IMG/VR virus record: IMGVR_UViG_3300035670_000144
Location: 1 to 64,000 of that record
Origin: a virus
Reading direction: 5' to 3' (one strand)
Length of the DNA: 64,000 bases
Under the pieces are notes generated by a model. It saw only the letters and a list, made by a program, of their open reading frames with translations. It was not told where the DNA came from and did not search any database. The position numbers were made by a program, and so were the translations under genes. How positions within the stretch are numbered: position 1 is the stretch's first letter; each line of letters begins with the position of its first letter. This document shows, piece by piece, positions 17,720-29,079 of this stretch.

Positions 17720-18547
17720 TTATAGAACTCCCCTAGTGCCTAAATCTGTTGGATATAATGGGTTTGGTTTTTCTGCTATTTCTTTTGGTGATCTAATAGG
17801 TGCTGCTTTTTGATCTTGTGGTTTCACACCCGGACCCGAATTGATATAAACTTTTCCACCACCAGCATCTATGCGAATATCTCCACCCTCTGTTGATATA
17901 GATATTGTTGATTTTGCTCCAATTGCTACATCCGATTGCTCTGCTTTTATTCCAACTTGTGCACCACCAATAGATGCTAAACCTCCAGATGGACTTTTTG
18001 CTTGAAGGGTCGCATTTGCTCCTTGAATGTTGATAGGCCCTTCTGATGAAGTCATATCTACAGGAGAACCACCTGCACCAAATATTTGAAATCCTTCTCC
18101 AGAAATTATATTTGTCTTTCCTGCAACCATACTGTTTTTATTTGATCCAACAACTTCATTATATGAATCATGAGTTGATGTGTTCATTTGTTTTGCTGTA
18201 ACATCAAAATTGCCTTCCGCCCTGAATGTAGCATCTACTTCAGAACGAATATCAAATGTTCCAGATGTATTAATTCTATACTCACCTCTAATATCGTTAT
18301 AGAATCCATTAAACACAGTCATCTTGGCCGATCCGTCTGGATTATAAATCCAACCTGTGCCACTTCTATGTTGCATGGAAATATATTCATGGTCTTTAAC
18401 ATCATTCATAATAAAAGTATGACCAGACCTAGTGATCATCATATCCTGAAAACCATACTTATTGGCATTAGGATTTTGCCTTGGATCACCGGGCTCTTTA
18501 TATTGCGATGTTTTTCTTGGCTCGTTTTCATTTATTTTAGTTGGCAT
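17720..18547 (-). CDS. gp5-like spike needle protein (C-terminal half)
   Basis: 275 aa. The N-terminus has SGHTFIMND and a VgrG-like ISMQHRSGTGWIYNPDGS, then repeats (FDIRSEVDATFRAEGNFDVTAKQMNTST) typical of the triple-stranded beta needle of gp5/VgrG proteins. The C-terminus (IDAGGGKVYINSGPG) ends the needle. No lysozyme domain is present. With the next gene, which carries the OB-fold portion, it appears to form a gp5 spike divided into two polypeptides. Confidence 0.75.
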   Translation of the reverse strand: MPTKINENEPRKTSQYKEPGDPRQNPNANKYGFQDMMITRSGHTFIMNDVKDHEYISMQHRSGTGWIYNPDGSAKMTVFNGFYNDIRGEYRINTSGTFDIRSEVDATFRAEGNFDVTAKQMNTSTHDSYNEVVGSNKNSMVAGKTNIISGEGFQIFGAGGSPVDMTSSEGPINIQGANATLQAKSPSGGLASIGGAQVGIKAEQSDVAIGAKSTISISTEGGDIRIDAGGGKVYINSGPGVKPQDQKAAPIRSPKEIAEKPNPLYPTDLGTRGVL

Positions 18548-18561
18548 AATTCATAACTCCT

Positions 18562-19821
18562 TTAAGCACCGGCAAAATTGGAAGAAGTCCATAAAACAGA
18601 GGATAATGGTTGCTTTGAATCTCTGTTGTTATCGGCATGTTGACTATTAGTTTTTCTTGTTGGACTCATTCCTGCTCTATTTGCGGCTTCTCTCAATGCG
18701 GCTTGGGCCTGTGGTGCAACTCTATTAATCATATCGAATATCTGTGAAGAATCTTTACCAAAAATGTTATCCCCAACACCAGCGGGGAATGATGCAGCAG
18801 ATGTCATAGAATTTAGCATAGAATTTTTAGATGTTGCAACGGTATTACTTACGTTTTCAGTCACATTTCCTGTCGCTGTTATTATTTGTTGAATGTTTCC
18901 AAATGCAGTTTCAATTTCTATCACAATATTATCTAATTTATCCAGTCCATATAAACTTTCATCTGAAATTAGTCTGTTGAATGCAGCCATAATATCTGCG
19001 ACCGATGTTACTTGCGATAATAGTGCAACAGCATTTTCAATGAAGACTTCCTCATTCACTCTCCTGTCAGAAAGATATGATATAGTATCCTGTTCCTCTT
19101 TCAAATCATCAATTAATGCTAATAATATTGCCCAAATTTCAGGTGGAATAGAATCCTGAATTTTTTTCTTATTTTCATCACTTAAGTTTTTGAGAGATTT
19201 ACCAAGATTTAAATTCGATCCTGGTAGAGAACCAAATGATGATGGATTTAATATACCGGCGAATTGTGCCAGTGCAGTTGGAATTTGGCCTATAGATGGT
19301 AATTTTCTTCCAGCGGTTTCTGCATATTCACCATTTGTAATTTTATTTCGTCTGTTTGAATGTTTATATACTTTACCTTCATCATTTTGCTGAGTCTTTA
19401 ATCCTCTAGCATCAACATATCCTTTAACTTCACTGATAATTTTTGACGGCCAATTTATTGCAGTCTCTCCTGGGGGGAACCACGACCATCCAGATAAATT
19501 TCCTGGCATACCTTCTTTGTCGTGAAGAATATCTGTCATTGGACCTAATATGATACAATCATTTCTACCTGTAGTTTTCAATGCAAGCACCAACTGCCCA
19601 TTATCAAAAGGTCTCATATTCTGGCCGTGTTTTGTGCCAACAGAGGTGCTTAATGCAATATGTTGTGGATCAACGCCTTGCCCATGTTCTGGAAATGCTA
19701 TCTGCATATTTCCAGATTGAGTTGGGTCTTGTATTCCTGTAGGACTGTCTTCTGTTCCATTGCCAACAACACGACCAATACTGAAAACTTGTGTAAAATC
19801 TTTTGGGCCACCTAACGACAT
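18562..19821 (-). CDS. gp5-like spike protein, OB-fold N-terminal part
   Basis: 419 aa from the ATG at 19819-19821 (AGGAGT upstream; TAATG overlap with the hub gene); a longer frame is open but lacks a better site. Residues about 15-110 (FSIGRVVGNGTED, GNMQIAFPEHGQGVDPQHIAL, FDNGQLVLALKTTGRNDCIILG) look like the gp5 OB fold. A long helical region follows (about 210-360). T4 gp5 has a lysozyme domain after the OB fold; none is visible here, and wall hydrolysis modules sit in the 1242-aa protein instead. Confidence 0.65.
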   Translation of the reverse strand: MSLGGPKDFTQVFSIGRVVGNGTEDSPTGIQDPTQSGNMQIAFPEHGQGVDPQHIALSTSVGTKHGQNMRPFDNGQLVLALKTTGRNDCIILGPMTDILHDKEGMPGNLSGWSWFPPGETAINWPSKIISEVKGYVDARGLKTQQNDEGKVYKHSNRRNKITNGEYAETAGRKLPSIGQIPTALAQFAGILNPSSFGSLPGSNLNLGKSLKNLSDENKKKIQDSIPPEIWAILLALIDDLKEEQDTISYLSDRRVNEEVFIENAVALLSQVTSVADIMAAFNRLISDESLYGLDKLDNIVIEIETAFGNIQQIITATGNVTENVSNTVATSKNSMLNSMTSAASFPAGVGDNIFGKDSSQIFDMINRVAPQAQAALREAANRAGMSPTRKTNSQHADNNRDSKQPLSSVLWTSSNFAGA

Positions 19822-21071
19822 TAAACCACTCCTTCTCCAATACTTCTGCTTACACAATCGACTGTAGTTGTGCCATATCCACCATATTTAATATTATGTG
19901 TCATGCTAACAATTAAATAATCCCCTGTTCCATAATTTGGAATAAGATTGCCGTTGTCTGCTGCCATCTTATTCCATAGTTCTAATCTAATCATTTTTCC
20001 TGCGTGTAAATCCGGATTCCAAGGTACAGTCATTCTCAATGCTATTCTATTTTGATCAATAAGAGACATTCTTGCTTGTCTTAGTTGTGCATATTTAGCG
20101 GACTGGTCCTCACATGCATTTTGTTGTGATGCGGAACCCACATTAGACAATACAGATTTTAGAACACCTGCACCAGCACCACATCCTATAGTTTGATTGC
20201 CCAACAGGCTTATCATACCTTTTAATGGGTTGAGTGCTATGACCGATATATTTTGATTCACTCCATTCAACAAATCTGTAAGAAGATCGAAGTCACATGG
20301 AAATGAATGTGTCGTAATGCCAAATGGATATGCATAGCCTGCTGATGATCCGGTTTCTTGAAAATTGAAGGCTTTACCGCCAAATAGATTTGATTGTGAT
20401 GTTAAATATTTTAGAGACCTGAAATGATGAGTCCCATCACCATCATCAATCTTATATGTCATATAATGGACGAATGAAGGATCATTCCCATCTAATGCAG
20501 CATTTGCTTGTTGAGTGACAACCTGAAATGGATGAATATTTTCTGCAATATAATCTCTTGCTGGCATAGAACTTTGAACATCAAGATTTTTAGCACCAGC
20601 ACATGAACTTAACACTTCACTGACTACACTGGATGGTGTAGTACATTTCCAAGATTTACTCACAAGTGTTGCTGCATCATCTAATAGTGTTTGATGACAA
20701 GCATGGATTGTGAAGTCTTCTGTATTATTATTATAGAGATGTCTTCTATCCAACCTATATACTGGTTGGCTTATTACCATTCTATGAGATATTCCAAAAT
20801 CTTTTAGAGATTCTTTTTCTAATTCAATTAAAATTGCTGCACCTTTTAGGGCATCCAGATTCTTAGGACTTTTACTTCTTACTCCTAGATGGTGTAATGC
20901 ACTATGAAATCTTACTGCTGTTTGTAATCCTGGTGTTAACAAACTTTCACCCAAAATTATTTCCATAGGTGTCAATTGTTCCATCACTGTAGTTAAATCA
21001 CCAGAGCCCGTAAATCCTATGTTTATAGAAACTAAAGACTTATCATTATAATTCAGGTCTTTGTCGGCCAT
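19821..21071 (-). CDS. Baseplate hub protein, gp27-like
   Basis: 416 aa. It has the size and beta-rich character of the central hub and lies next to the OB-fold spike protein, its expected partner. Motifs include LTPMEIILGESLLTPGLQTAVRFHSAL and a C-terminal GKMIRLELWNKM...GDYLIVSMTHNIKYGGY, similar to hub domains that build the tube-like ring above the spike. It overlaps gene 53 by one base. Assignment rests on context and fold resemblance more than clear sequence identity. Confidence 0.65.
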   Translation of the reverse strand: MADKDLNYNDKSLVSINIGFTGSGDLTTVMEQLTPMEIILGESLLTPGLQTAVRFHSALHHLGVRSKSPKNLDALKGAAILIELEKESLKDFGISHRMVISQPVYRLDRRHLYNNNTEDFTIHACHQTLLDDAATLVSKSWKCTTPSSVVSEVLSSCAGAKNLDVQSSMPARDYIAENIHPFQVVTQQANAALDGNDPSFVHYMTYKIDDGDGTHHFRSLKYLTSQSNLFGGKAFNFQETGSSAGYAYPFGITTHSFPCDFDLLTDLLNGVNQNISVIALNPLKGMISLLGNQTIGCGAGAGVLKSVLSNVGSASQQNACEDQSAKYAQLRQARMSLIDQNRIALRMTVPWNPDLHAGKMIRLELWNKMAADNGNLIPNYGTGDYLIVSMTHNIKYGGYGTTTVDCVSRSIGEGVV

Positions 21072-24421: not shown

Positions 24422-25141
24422 ATGCTTCCTAAAATTGACTTGCCTATTTATGAAATAAAATTGCCTTCGTCTGGAAAACCAGTGAAGATTAGACCGTTTG
24501 TCGTTCGTGAAGAAAAACTACTTCTCATTGCTTTAGAATCAGGAGATGAAAGAGAGATTATTGAAACCACTAAGCAGATTGTGAATAATTGTTTGGTCGA
24601 TAAAGTTGATATTGATAAGCTGCCGTTCTTTGATGTTGATTATATCTTTATTGCTCTTAGAGCCAAAGCAGTTGGCGATACTATTGATGTCAAATATACT
24701 TGCTATAATGAAGTAGATGGAACATCATGTGATAGTACCTTTCCTGCTAAAATTGATGTAATGAACTATACTTTACTCAAAGATGAAAACATCAAAGATA
24801 AAATTCAACTAACTGGAACACTGTCTGTCAAGATGAGGTATCCATCATATACTGTGATGAGATTACTAGATTCTGATATGTCAAACTTTGATAAGAAGAT
24901 TAATATTATTGCAGAATGTGTTGATATTGTAGCAGATAAGGAAAAAGTTTATACACGAAAAGATTACACGAATGATGAACTTATAGATTTTATTGAGAAT
25001 CTTCCACAACAGCAGTATAAAAGACTAGAAGAATTTGTTGATAATTTTCCATCTTTTGTCATTACATCCAAAGCTACTTGCCCAAAATGTAAGTATGAGC
25101 ACACTTTAGATTACAGAGACTTTACCGATTTTTTCGTCTAA
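24422..25141 (+). CDS. 26: Baseplate hub protein gp26
   Basis: 239 aa. LPIYEIKLPSSGKPVKIRPFVVREEKLLLIALESGD is the start of the T4 gp26/baseplate hub family, followed by the conserved helical core. Two Cys pairs (in the CYNEVDGTSC region and the C-terminal CPKC) suggest bound zinc. The stop overlaps the next start (TAATG). Confidence 0.88.
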   Translation: MLPKIDLPIYEIKLPSSGKPVKIRPFVVREEKLLLIALESGDEREIIETTKQIVNNCLVDKVDIDKLPFFDVDYIFIALRAKAVGDTIDVKYTCYNEVDGTSCDSTFPAKIDVMNYTLLKDENIKDKIQLTGTLSVKMRYPSYTVMRLLDSDMSNFDKKINIIAECVDIVADKEKVYTRKDYTNDELIDFIENLPQQQYKRLEEFVDNFPSFVITSKATCPKCKYEHTLDYRDFTDFFV

Positions 25142-25347
25142 TGCTTGGTTACGATACACTGATGAATCATTTTAAGACAAACTTTTCATTGATGCAACAT
25201 CACAAATATAATTTAAGTGATATTGAAAATATGATGCCCTGGGAAAAGTTTGTTTATGTGGATATGTTGAGACAACATATTAAACATCAGGAAGATTTGG
25301 CTCGTGATCAAGCAGCAGCAATGAAAGCACAACAAAGAACGAGATAA
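25141..25347 (+). CDS. Baseplate hub assembly protein candidate (gp51-like)
   Basis: 68 aa, mainly helical. FSLMQHHKYNLSDIENMMPWEKFVYVDMLRQHIKHQEDLARDQ resembles the short gp51 proteins that follow gene 26 in cyanophage-type genomes. It is translationally coupled to gp26 (TAATG). The family is weakly conserved, so the name is tentative. Confidence 0.6.
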   Translation: MLGYDTLMNHFKTNFSLMQHHKYNLSDIENMMPWEKFVYVDMLRQHIKHQEDLARDQAAAMKAQQRTR

Positions 25348-25350
25348 GAA

Positions 25351-28300
25351 ATGGCAAAAATAGACCCTAGCAAACTTACAGTAGATTTCAAATCTTTGAT
25401 GAGACTTAGCATGTCTGATAGATATGCTATGGCACAAAGTTCTCAAGGTCAGAGTTATCTGGCATCATTAACTCCTACACAATTTGCTATGCTATTTCCA
25501 GATTATTATAGACAAAGATTGCCCGATATGGGAATATCTGGAAGAAGGGGGGCTTCTGCTCCTTCTGGTGCCGGTTCAAGACCTTCTGGCGGAACACCAT
25601 CTAGTGGAGCATCTACATATACCCCACCAACTGCTGCACCTAGTACAACATCACCAACGCCTAAAGCACAACCACAACAAGGAACTGAAGTTAAGCCATC
25701 ATGGCAAAAAAGAATTGAAGAAATATTAAAACGCGATTCTCCGGGTTTTCAAATAAAAGAAGATACTGTCACAAAATCTTCTAGGATAGACCAAAGAGGA
25801 TATGTCAACAAAGAAGATTTATATAAACAAGCAGTTTCTACTTTTAGAAGTTCTCCTCTAAACGGATTTGTTCCTAAAGATGGTGATAGATATGGAATAA
25901 GAAAAGGTACGCCTGAAGAATGGGCAAATCTTGCGATGAGAACTGTTGAAGTGGAATCTAGTTTTCGTGTTACAACCACAAATCCAAAAGATGAAGGTGG
26001 ATCATTTGGGCTATTTCAATGGGGATATCATTATGGAATAAACAAAGACAATTGGAAAGACCCACAAGCACAATTAGATGCGTTTGTTAAATATTCCAAT
26101 CAGTGGGTTATAAATGGTGGTGGTTATATATTACCACCAGCAGATGTTAAAGGCGTTCGTAGATATGATGGACATGGAGGGTTTGGTGCAGCATTTTCTA
26201 CTTTTAGGGATGATAAAGTAAATTCTAAAGCTGCTTGGACAACATCAAAATCTATCGAAACATCCTTAGCTAGTCGTCAACAATCTGCACTAGAAAAATC
26301 ATCAACAGCAACTCCTGGTGATCCTTCAAAAACAGGAACAACTGAGCAAACATCTTTGCGACCAAAAACAATAACCGCCGATCCTAGACAACTTGAACAA
26401 TTGAATAGAGAGCGTAAACATTTTTATAGTGGAAAATTGACTATGGAGGGGGTGGAATATACATTTGGTTCTGGTGGTAGAAAAGCAGGCTCTATGCCAT
26501 ATGGAACATTCGATATAACAGGATTGCATAGAAAAAGTCAATATAAATTTTTTGAAAACAATTCTTTCTACGTCAAAGATATGTTTGATCCAAAAGTCGG
26601 TAGAAATAGAGTTGGTATGCTGATACACAGCCAAACAGATTTAGATAAGTTGTATAGTGCCGGATGTATTGCTATAAGTAGAAAAGAATGGCCTAAATTT
26701 AAGGCACATCTACTGGATTACATGAAAAGAAGTGGTTCTATGTCAATAACTGTAAATCCAGATGGGACAGCATATATTGGACCTAAAGGCAGTGAGCCAA
26801 CAACATCTGTTGCAGATGTTACTAAAGATTTCCCAAAACTACCTCAAGGCGTCGATCCAAAAGAAGCAATGGAATTAGAAAAGAGGATGCCTAAAGATTT
26901 AAATCCTCAAATCGTAAAGTATATGAAAGAGAATATGTCTATTGAAGATAGACGGTCACTTTTAGATAAGCTAGAAAAGAAGCCGGAATTATTAACAGAA
27001 CTTAATGGTCTTGCAGCAAAAACCATAGAAACAAAAAACAGTGAACCTGCTAAAAAACAGGCTGCTAAAATTTTGACGGATGTTGTTAATGAAGATACTA
27101 TGCCAGAATCGCTGTTGGACTTGAGGGTTAAGACATTTGATAGAGGCGATGTGACGCTGAGAGAACTCGGTGTAACTAAATTTTCAGAATTGACAAAGAA
27201 AGGGGGTCAGGCATTTGCAGGTGGTGCAAATGATAGGACCACAACATTGCTTGCAGGAGATATTCAACAACATTTTGGTGAAAATTTTGGAAGAATCACT
27301 GCACAAAATGATTTATGGCATAAGTCTAACCGTGCTCCAGGAACAAGTCATAGAACAGGTAGAAAATTAGACTTCACTTTAAATGATGCTGATTATCGTG
27401 GTGGACATAAAAGACTATCAAAATATCTTGCGGAAAAATATGGAATGGAAGAAGGTAAAGATTTCAAGATAATATCTAGACCACATGGCGACGGCCCACA
27501 TATGGATTTTGAATTGACGCCTTCTGGTGGTAGAAAAGTATCGGCAGTATTAGAGCCTAGGACAGAGAAAGAAACTGAAGTTTCTAGAGAAGCAGCTTTA
27601 CCAGCACAAGAAAAGCCAAATAAAATATTTGTTGCTGGTCTAGAAGATAGGGGTGAAAATTTTAAAGAACAATCTGCTAGAATGGGTGCAGGAACTAAAT
27701 CATTTAGACACAATTCTGATGTAAATGATATTATCAAATACGCAAAAGAAAATCCAGATGCACCAATAACACTATTTAGTGCGGGAAATAAACACCTAAA
27801 GAGATTATTAGATGCAGGTATTGATGCCCGTAGAATAACCATGTCTGAGCCATATAAACCAGACCCTGATACTGTCAGAGATTTTACTGCAAAAGGTGGA
27901 AATTATATATATGGCGATTCATTTTCTACTGGAAAATTTAGAGGCGTTGATGAATTACCAAATGCGAGAGCAAGACCCGGAAAAACACATTTTGATTCTA
28001 TTGTACCATCTGCTATTCCAGTCCAGGAAAAGTCTCCACTAGAAACTGCATCCACACAACCACAGGCAGAAGGTGCTAATAAAATTAAAAAGGTTTTGGA
28101 TGCAGGAAAGGGGTATACTAAAGTTGAGTATGAAGATGGTAGAGTAGAATTGAGAAAAGGGCAATTTGGATGGAGAAATAACAACCCAGGAAATATAATA
28201 GCAGGAAAATTTGCGGAAAGTCAAGGTGCGATTCCAGGCGGTGGAAGATTTGCACTATTCCCAACGCTTGAGGCCGGTAATAAAGCGAGAAGAAATTTAC

Positions 28301-29079
28301 TATTTGAAAGCGATTCTTATAAAGATTTGACAGTATCAGAAGCAATAAGAAAATGGGCACCACCGTCAGAAAATAATTCTGATGATTATGCGAGGAGGTT
28401 TGCTGCTGCCGCAGGTGTTCCACTTAATACTAAAATGAAAGACTTCACGGAAAAACAAAGAAATTTGGCAATGAAGTCTCAAGAAACCATTGAAGGTAAT
28501 GCTCCAGGAACCATAGAAGTTATTAGAGAAGGTGTGTCACCAGCACCAGTACAAGAAGAGCAAAAAATAAATCCAATCCCAGGAACTGCTATTGTAGAGA
28601 AAGAAGATGAGGTTCCAGCAAAATATGCTGGTGGCGAAGTTCAAACAAGAGGTGATACGGCAACAGTAATAAATGATAAAGGGGAGCCTCTAGCTAGAAT
28701 CAATCCTGATAAAGAACAAATATCTCTTACTGGTACAGGAAATATTGATGTTCAACCAACATACAGAACTGATCCAAGGGCACTAGAACAACAGAACGCA
28801 CAAAGACAAGAAGTTGGAAATATTAATATAGATGATAGAATGCAGGAGATGTCTACAAATATTATGAATCAGGTCAGACAAATGATTCCACAAGGAGGCA
28901 ATCCAAATTGGGAATCTATGATGACTTCTATGGCAGCAGCAAGGACTTTATCTGAAAGCCCATCATATACGTTCTCCAATGAATCGTTTAGACGGGCTAT
29001 GGCTGGTGCTAGATTTGAAAAATCTGGTGATTCTGCACTCGGCGGACATTTTGAAGTAGCCAACAGTAATTTGACATAA
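25351..29079 (+). CDS. Multi-domain tail hub protein with several cell-wall hydrolase modules
   Basis: 1242 aa. A helical N-terminus (1-60) and a Ser/Pro-rich linker (65-125) precede these modules. (1) A lysozyme or transglycosylase-like region about 185-290 (MRTVEVESSF, GGSFGLFQWG). (2) An L,D-transpeptidase-like region about 345-470 with H426 and SAGC439. (3) A peptidase M15-like region about 620-735 with H667, D674 and H717-M-D719. (4) An alpha/beta region 755-890 of unknown role. (5) A muramidase-like region from W941-RNNNPGNI to about 1040. It should act on peptidoglycan during entry, replacing the lysozyme missing from the split gp5. Catalysis is inferred from motifs. Confidence 0.8.
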   Translation: MAKIDPSKLTVDFKSLMRLSMSDRYAMAQSSQGQSYLASLTPTQFAMLFPDYYRQRLPDMGISGRRGASAPSGAGSRPSGGTPSSGASTYTPPTAAPSTTSPTPKAQPQQGTEVKPSWQKRIEEILKRDSPGFQIKEDTVTKSSRIDQRGYVNKEDLYKQAVSTFRSSPLNGFVPKDGDRYGIRKGTPEEWANLAMRTVEVESSFRVTTTNPKDEGGSFGLFQWGYHYGINKDNWKDPQAQLDAFVKYSNQWVINGGGYILPPADVKGVRRYDGHGGFGAAFSTFRDDKVNSKAAWTTSKSIETSLASRQQSALEKSSTATPGDPSKTGTTEQTSLRPKTITADPRQLEQLNRERKHFYSGKLTMEGVEYTFGSGGRKAGSMPYGTFDITGLHRKSQYKFFENNSFYVKDMFDPKVGRNRVGMLIHSQTDLDKLYSAGCIAISRKEWPKFKAHLLDYMKRSGSMSITVNPDGTAYIGPKGSEPTTSVADVTKDFPKLPQGVDPKEAMELEKRMPKDLNPQIVKYMKENMSIEDRRSLLDKLEKKPELLTELNGLAAKTIETKNSEPAKKQAAKILTDVVNEDTMPESLLDLRVKTFDRGDVTLRELGVTKFSELTKKGGQAFAGGANDRTTTLLAGDIQQHFGENFGRITAQNDLWHKSNRAPGTSHRTGRKLDFTLNDADYRGGHKRLSKYLAEKYGMEEGKDFKIISRPHGDGPHMDFELTPSGGRKVSAVLEPRTEKETEVSREAALPAQEKPNKIFVAGLEDRGENFKEQSARMGAGTKSFRHNSDVNDIIKYAKENPDAPITLFSAGNKHLKRLLDAGIDARRITMSEPYKPDPDTVRDFTAKGGNYIYGDSFSTGKFRGVDELPNARARPGKTHFDSIVPSAIPVQEKSPLETASTQPQAEGANKIKKVLDAGKGYTKVEYEDGRVELRKGQFGWRNNNPGNIIAGKFAESQGAIPGGGRFALFPTLEAGNKARRNLLFESDSYKDLTVSEAIRKWAPPSENNSDDYARRFAAAAGVPLNTKMKDFTEKQRNLAMKSQETIEGNAPGTIEVIREGVSPAPVQEEQKINPIPGTAIVEKEDEVPAKYAGGEVQTRGDTATVINDKGEPLARINPDKEQISLTGTGNIDVQPTYRTDPRALEQQNAQRQEVGNINIDDRMQEMSTNIMNQVRQMIPQGGNPNWESMMTSMAAARTLSESPSYTFSNESFRRAMAGARFEKSGDSALGGHFEVANSNLT

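Follow-up and report, generated by a model that had tools for sequence, protein, structure and literature searches.

A T4-like phage tail locus encodes a probable virion-carried, multi-enzyme wall-opening protein with exchangeable modules

A fragment of a T4-like water phage, the 74,525-base virus record IMGVR_UViG_3300035670_000144 of IMG/VR, carries an open reading frame (ORF) of 1242 amino acids (aa) at 25351-29079 on the + strand, hereafter X. We analyzed the first 64,000 nucleotides of this record, hereafter the window, and give all positions in its numbering. X follows genes for gp26-like and gp51-like baseplate hub proteins and combines several predicted wall-active modules between conserved ends. 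We propose that X probably travels in the virion of this T4-like (Kyanoviridae-type) phage and opens the cell wall with several enzymes, in the form of exchangeable modules between two terminal tags. Most likely it is a virion-associated lysin that rides in the hub or tail lumen and breaches the wall locally.

An initial annotation had described X as a tail hub protein with several peptidoglycan-active modules. We confirmed the ORF, and the residues singled out there (H426, C439, H667, D674, H717 and W941-RNNNPGNI) sit as stated. A multi-module protein does lie at the tail-hub locus, but "hub protein" overstates a placement that comes from gp26-gp51-X synteny only. Nor is the multi-module build a peculiarity of this phage: several wall modules per protein are the rule in the family to which X belongs.

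Conserved ends, exchanged middles

The N-terminal tag of X covers aa 1-62 (25351-25536, on the + strand like all parts of X) and is marked by conserved columns that include R24 and the motif LTPxQxAxLFPxYYxxxLPD. A hidden Markov model (HMM) of this tag scores 27-106 bits in the proteins we call class I, to which it is confined, while the best decoy scores 6. The C-terminal conserved region and tag, supported by an HMM of the C-terminal tag and by conserved columns (GG1094, P1136, RA1215, HF1233), span aa 1088-1242 (28612-29076). Neither tag profile matches T4, pelagiphage or cyanophage proteins, or the same-locus proteins of marine relatives that we call class II.

Comparison with two close relatives, L003 and L004, reveals what changes between the tags. 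Their gp26 is 95% identical to that of the window phage and the aa 1088-1242 region is 92.5% identical, yet their X proteins share only the ends, the middle being replaced. At the DNA level, identity ends at 25642 (aa 98) and is regained from 28612 (aa 1088) onward. The sole match in between is the linker island STATPGDPSKTG (aa 316-336; 26297-26356), 60 bases at 79% identity, which may act as a recombination joint for cassette swapping. Linkers rich in Pro, Ser and Thr join the modules of X, and STATPGDPSKTG recurs as a homology island where modules meet; L003 has it twice (L003:5756-5794). A further relative, L002, retains the L,D-transpeptidase-type (LDT), M15-like and alpha/beta modules described below, is without module 5, and has a different module 1 of weak RNNPG-like character (its 13.0 bits do not exceed the best shuffle).

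Scanning with the N-terminal tag profile yielded 85 stretches. We examined 43 non-redundant class I proteins for Pfam content and 55 for LDT profile matches. Pfam matches across the 43 were to Phage_lysozyme2 (10), M23 (6), VgrG3-like C, SLT_3 and SLT (3 each), GH24 and Transglycosylas (2 each), and Glucosaminidase, Amidase_2 and M15_4 (1 each); the top families are all wall hydrolases. The LDT profile matched 2 of the 55, the window protein and L002. Given this wall-hydrolase content and the scarcity of LDT matches, we regard the multi-enzyme chain as a family trait and the LDT module as a rare cassette. Class I proteins range from 623 to 1293 aa, and near-identical phages differ in length as well (1111 versus 1242 aa). 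Judged from these alignments, near-identical phages swap whole enzyme cassettes while the tags stay fixed, and phages seem to change their wall-breaching tools like interchangeable tips.

Inspection by eye suggested further contents of the same slot. L003 (aa 365-850) and L015 (aa 340-840) hold CHAP/NlpC-like (CG.G ... HIQ.W) and amidase-2-like (HISG ... YH ... GHG) modules; these escape Pfam and look like divergent wall enzymes. A TIM-barrel glycosidase-like stretch in L007 (aa 310-560; IHYVGANMD ... YTYGPRSH) is a possible cargo type.

An L,D-transpeptidase-type module

Profile, alignment and modeling evidence together confirm module 2 (aa 345-475; 26383-26775), with its predicted catalytic pair H426 and C439, as a divergent Tlde1/YkuD-type domain. 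The Pfam Tlde1_dom match was initially weak (E 0.15 for the whole protein, 0.0048 for the segment alone), and we therefore built a dedicated profile from 49 genuine Tlde1/DUF2778 (PF10908) domains collected from bacterial genomes. This profile gave 18.5 bits for the window protein and 16.9 for L002, against 6.4 for the best of ~1,260 shuffled decoys. H426 and C439 align with the catalytic His and Cys of the Tlde1 family within an IH...(S/T)xGC context, and hhalign comparisons with the family reached 62-81%, with cross-controls at most 1%. The ratio of nonsynonymous to synonymous substitution rates (dN/dS) relative to L002 is 0.063, indicating strong purifying selection on this domain.

Structure prediction agrees with this assignment. 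An AlphaFold2 (AF2) model built with viral homologues in the alignment had a predicted local distance difference test score (pLDDT) of 73.5 and a predicted template modeling score (pTM) of 0.70. Its leading PDB fold matches are LD-transpeptidases and LD-carboxypeptidases (YkuD, LdtMt enzymes, Csd6, Pgp2, Bd1075 and DpaA), with Z up to 5.5, where a Z below 8 is not strong alone. The earlier call of an L,D-transpeptidase-like module at H426...SAGC439 is thereby upheld, including its expected fold, as predicted from an alignment that contained family members.

The same annotation had considered such a module unexpected in a tail. Phages do carry LDT-type domains, with stand-alone Tlde1/DUF2778 proteins in at least 240 viral contigs and 58 phage records. 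These proteins are ~118 aa long (for example in L262-L341 and Dickeya phage JA29) and fall in phrog_24118, which has no assigned function. Within a tail-locus protein the module is indeed unusual, as its rarity in class I attests. The open-access literature yielded no description of an LDT-type module within a tail protein, and within the searches made here X holds the first tail-locus domain of this type.

Single-protein patterns for the LDT, M15-like and alpha/beta segments hit L002 alone, and tblastn of the three segments against phages or plasmids gave nothing useful. A profile of the window LDT module found no convincing match in 398 bacterial genomes, the LDT model had no significant match in a viral fold library, and a PG_binding_1 search was uninformative for the module question.

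The remaining modules

At the C-terminal side, module identity is certain: module 5 (aa 936-1060; 28156-28530) is a predicted RNNNPGN muramidase-like domain. An HMM built from 79 bacterial and prophage relatives scores it at 134 bits (E 2e-40 in the test set), with every invariant residue present, including E1048, a position 99% conserved among the relatives. Module 5 also matches phrog_873 (1.7e-18) and PDB 9vvp gp29 (8e-8), and it alone reached significance in whole-protein Pfam, NCBIfam and PDB searches. The second muramidase-like module announced at W941 RNNNPGNI is thus strongly supported. A UvrA_DNA-bind match at 993-1044, which overlaps this module, was discarded as chance.

Module 1 (aa 144-310; 25780-26280) is lysozyme-like, of the Phage_lysozyme2 type, and contains E202-SSF...GLFQ with E202 as the putative catalytic residue. 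A sub-threshold PF18013 match and a short similarity to the same-locus protein of Synechococcus phages (38-43% over about 45-50 aa) leave the lysozyme-like assignment of the initial annotation standing, weakly.

Module 3 (aa 590-735; 27118-27555) is plausible as an M15 metallopeptidase, of the LAS type, but not established. It carries the zinc motif S-x-H-x2-G-x3-D...H-x-D, formed by H667, D674 and H717, which arose by chance in 19 of 20,000 shuffles. In hhalign comparisons that brought the metal motif into register, M15_4 reached 24% and M15_3 11%, with controls up to 1%. In the AF2 model the order of helices and strands fits the LAS fold, but pLDDT is about 31-75. The motif proposed earlier for an M15 peptidase-like module is therefore present, while the profile evidence for it is weak.

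Three parts of X had not been noted before: the tags, a helical segment and an alpha/beta domain. The helical segment (aa 480-575; 26788-27075), seen in AF2 secondary structure, has no credible Pfam match. Module 4, an alpha/beta (Rossmann-like) domain (aa 756-885; 27616-28005), lies between the M15-like and muramidase modules and has the highest AF2 confidence in its model, with blocks mostly at pLDDT 71-85. It has no Pfam or PHROG match. With its LFSAGN, SEPYKPD and THFD motifs it reads like a cut-down alpha/beta hydrolase. A fold search with the first AF2 model (aa 330-905) was filled by unspecific Rossmann-like matches, with the alpha/beta domain dominating.

The low profile scores of modules 1 and 3 would also fit a chain in which the lysozyme-like, M15-like and alpha/beta modules are partly catalytically dead binding or spacer domains, leaving only the RNNNPGN and LDT modules to act. 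We consider this unlikely: H667, D674 and H717 are identical in L002, and dN/dS is 0.25 for the M15-like and 0.27 for the alpha/beta module (0.07 for the C-terminal region), indicating purifying selection.

A proposed role in wall opening

We envisage that the end-tags dock X in the tail hub or tail lumen and that tail contraction releases it into the periplasm. There, the Phage_lysozyme2-like module on the N-terminal side and the RNNNPGN module on the C-terminal side would cut glycans, while the Tlde1-like LDT-fold and M15-like modules would cut stem peptides. The resulting local gap in the wall would let the tube and DNA pass. Cassette swapping would most likely follow differences in host wall chemistry.

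In T4, gp5 performs hub-associated peptidoglycan hydrolysis during tail penetration. The window phage has a split gp5 (17720-19857, − strand), comprising an OB-fold (oligonucleotide/oligosaccharide-binding) protein at 18562-19857 and a beta-helix needle at 17720-18547; its phrog_430 match covers only profile positions 329-468 of 868. A lysozyme domain was looked for within and between the two parts and none was detected, as the initial annotation had held. Since split gp5 shows no such domain, X is the likely replacement and would take over the lysozyme job that gp5 holds in T4. Methylophilales phage Melnitz likewise has a separate gp5 OB gene.

Several observations weigh against this proposal. 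The placement of X in the virion is read from sequence and synteny alone. The PF18013 match of module 1 covers aa 199-251 at 16.7 bits (E 0.0086) and does not reach the cut-off of 28.2; module 3 likewise falls under curated cut-offs, and hmmsearch with M15_3 and M15_4 gave no match to it. The LDT segment alone scores 17.8 bits, below the PF10908 gathering score of 30.1, and we therefore call it Tlde1-like rather than a certified member. It has HS (H426-S427) where the family has HG after the catalytic His. Its AF2 model is not independent of the family members in the alignment, and a two-sequence model (aa 330-905) left the LDT region unreadable, with pLDDT about 30-45. Finally, an LD-carboxypeptidase alone would leave the wall mesh unloosened.

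What might the LDT module do? Outside crosslinking, the LDT fold often serves LD-carboxypeptidases or LD-endopeptidases, among them Csd6, Pgp2, Bd1075 and DpaA. Tlde1a is a further example (PMC9638812). By this analogy, the likeliest activity is hydrolysis of either kind rather than net crosslink formation, and cleavage of 3-3 links is possible. Alternatively, the module might genuinely catalyze transpeptidation or D-amino-acid exchange, and thereby reinforce the wall or seal it again once injection is over, or else keep later phages out. The LDT fold with its Cys/His pair is compatible with that, and Tlde1a, besides acting as a carboxypeptidase, carries out exchange and forms some 3-3 links (PMC9638812). 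We judge this improbable, however: a tail protein is expected in low copy number, the module is combined with hydrolases only, its active site departs from the family, and no class I member beyond X and L002 has it. The initial annotation had linked the module to 3-3 crosslinks of Rhizobiales-type walls. We found no host evidence for Rhizobiales behind this argument; the closest isolates by gp6 infect Pelagibacter and Methylophilales.

X could instead act at lysis, as an endolysin-like multi-domain protein that is encoded in the baseplate cluster but absent from the virion. Its PHROG matches are named endolysin, and phages encode stand-alone homologues of its modules. This is very improbable because X keeps its tail-operon position after gp26-gp51 across many contigs, carries long conserved end-tags that free endolysins lack, and is without a hydrophobic signal segment (maximum hydropathy 0.49 in the window protein). 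We retain a virion-carried lysin as the preferred reading.

X and the tape measure

The position of X also invites comparison with the tape measure, and X might be the gp29 counterpart with embedded wall enzymes. Pelagibacter phage HTVC008M, among the nearest isolates by gp6, has a 687-aa "putative tail tape measure" after gp26-gp51, and some same-locus proteins of marine relatives match tape-measure PHROGs. Moreover, a tape-measure candidate marked by a strong hydrophobic segment was not seen elsewhere in the 74.5-kb fragment, though the rest of the tail cluster is present. Tape measures with wall hydrolase motifs, like virion lysins, are already known; that of TM4 bears peptidoglycan hydrolase motifs (PMC1796659).

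Nevertheless, we find it unlikely that X is a tape measure. Its length varies in the class, and between near-identical phages, in a manner unlike a ruler. Class I proteins are without a hydrophobic segment, with maximum hydropathy of 0.5-1.3 versus mostly 1.6-2.3 in T4 gp29 and class II, and both features make them poor rulers. The modeled part of X has little helix beyond the one 95-aa stretch. Marine class II proteins, tried as T4 gp29 homologues, were rejected after a negative profile comparison. We also dropped phrog_167 as a tape-measure test; it is unspecific, with matches in all 14 control genomes.

A broader idea, which we hold only tentatively and rate as doubtful, is that, throughout a clade of uncultured T4-like phages, a polymorphic arsenal for breaching walls now occupies the tape-measure slot behind gp26-gp51. 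Fixed docking tags would hold cassettes, including L,D-transpeptidase-type ones, that are exchanged like type VI secretion system (T6SS) effector cargo. Wall chemistry, rather than receptor choice, would then be a main axis of diversification, and another protein or rule would set tail length.

Relation to known systems

Virion-associated lysins are usually described with one or two domains. In X the number of wall-active modules would reach four or five, and cassette exchange between near-identical phages remodels the protein while tags and neighbors stay fixed. The proposed hub-associated wall hydrolysis resembles that of the T4 gp27-gp5 hub. In T4, however, gp5 carries one lysozyme domain in a trimeric needle, whereas X is a separate protein of four or five modules. 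With TM4 Tmp, a tape-measure virion protein whose mt3 wall hydrolase motif is embedded at a tail locus (PMC1796659), X shares locus and embedded enzymes, its own virion placement being predicted. It differs from TM4-type tape measures in its inconstant length, its missing hydrophobic segment and its swapping of whole cassettes between tags.

The same-locus proteins of Synechococcus phages S-RIM44 and Sf-CH11 ("tail lysozyme domain-containing", phrog_5453) share the gp26-gp51-X position and the short lysozyme-like match. Unlike X, they have a hydrophobic segment and are without class I tags and an LDT module. Tlde1/DUF2778 enzymes (PF10908; Tlde1a, PMC9638812; phrog_24118) share with module 2 the GxxPxG, IH and SxGC signature, the catalytic His and Cys and the predicted fold; the module in X differs in being embedded in a tail-locus multi-enzyme protein, with HS for HG and a score under the Pfam cut-off. 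VgrG3-type and evolved T6SS spike effectors offer a further parallel, with a fixed delivery part, exchangeable wall-enzyme cargo and a contractile machine, and three class I members match PF21277 VgrG3-like C. In contrast to these effectors, X belongs to a phage tail, has several enzymes per chain, and is expected to need no immunity gene (none was sought).

Class I phages form a natural series differing mainly in wall enzymes, in which a connection between entry and host wall chemistry can be tested. Modular wall enzymes suited to Gram-negative hosts can also be drawn from the X family.

Locus and neighboring genes

By family matches and synteny, the + strand gene order is gp4-gp2-gp19-gp26-gp51-X. 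The upstream anchor, a gp26-like baseplate hub gene (24422-25141, +, 239 aa), matches phrog_150 baseplate hub at E 3e-59 and has 78 related loci. Between it and X lies a 68-aa gp51-like ORF (25141-25347, +), a predicted baseplate hub assembly catalyst. Downstream of X lies an oppositely oriented 310-aa gene that we take, from reading its sequence, to be gp32-like.

Synechococcus phages and the relatives that we checked share the gp26-gp51-X order; loci derived from metagenomes may be fragments. An ORF at the position of the gp51-like one is present in those relatives of both classes that were checked, and cyanophage S-RIM44 has it under the annotation gp51; a short gp51 of marine T4-likes was described earlier (PMC3037559). 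HTVC008M and Melnitz have an extra ORF of ~110 aa between gp51 and the X gene (L351:3522-3854 and L352:5514-5843) that is absent from class I phages.

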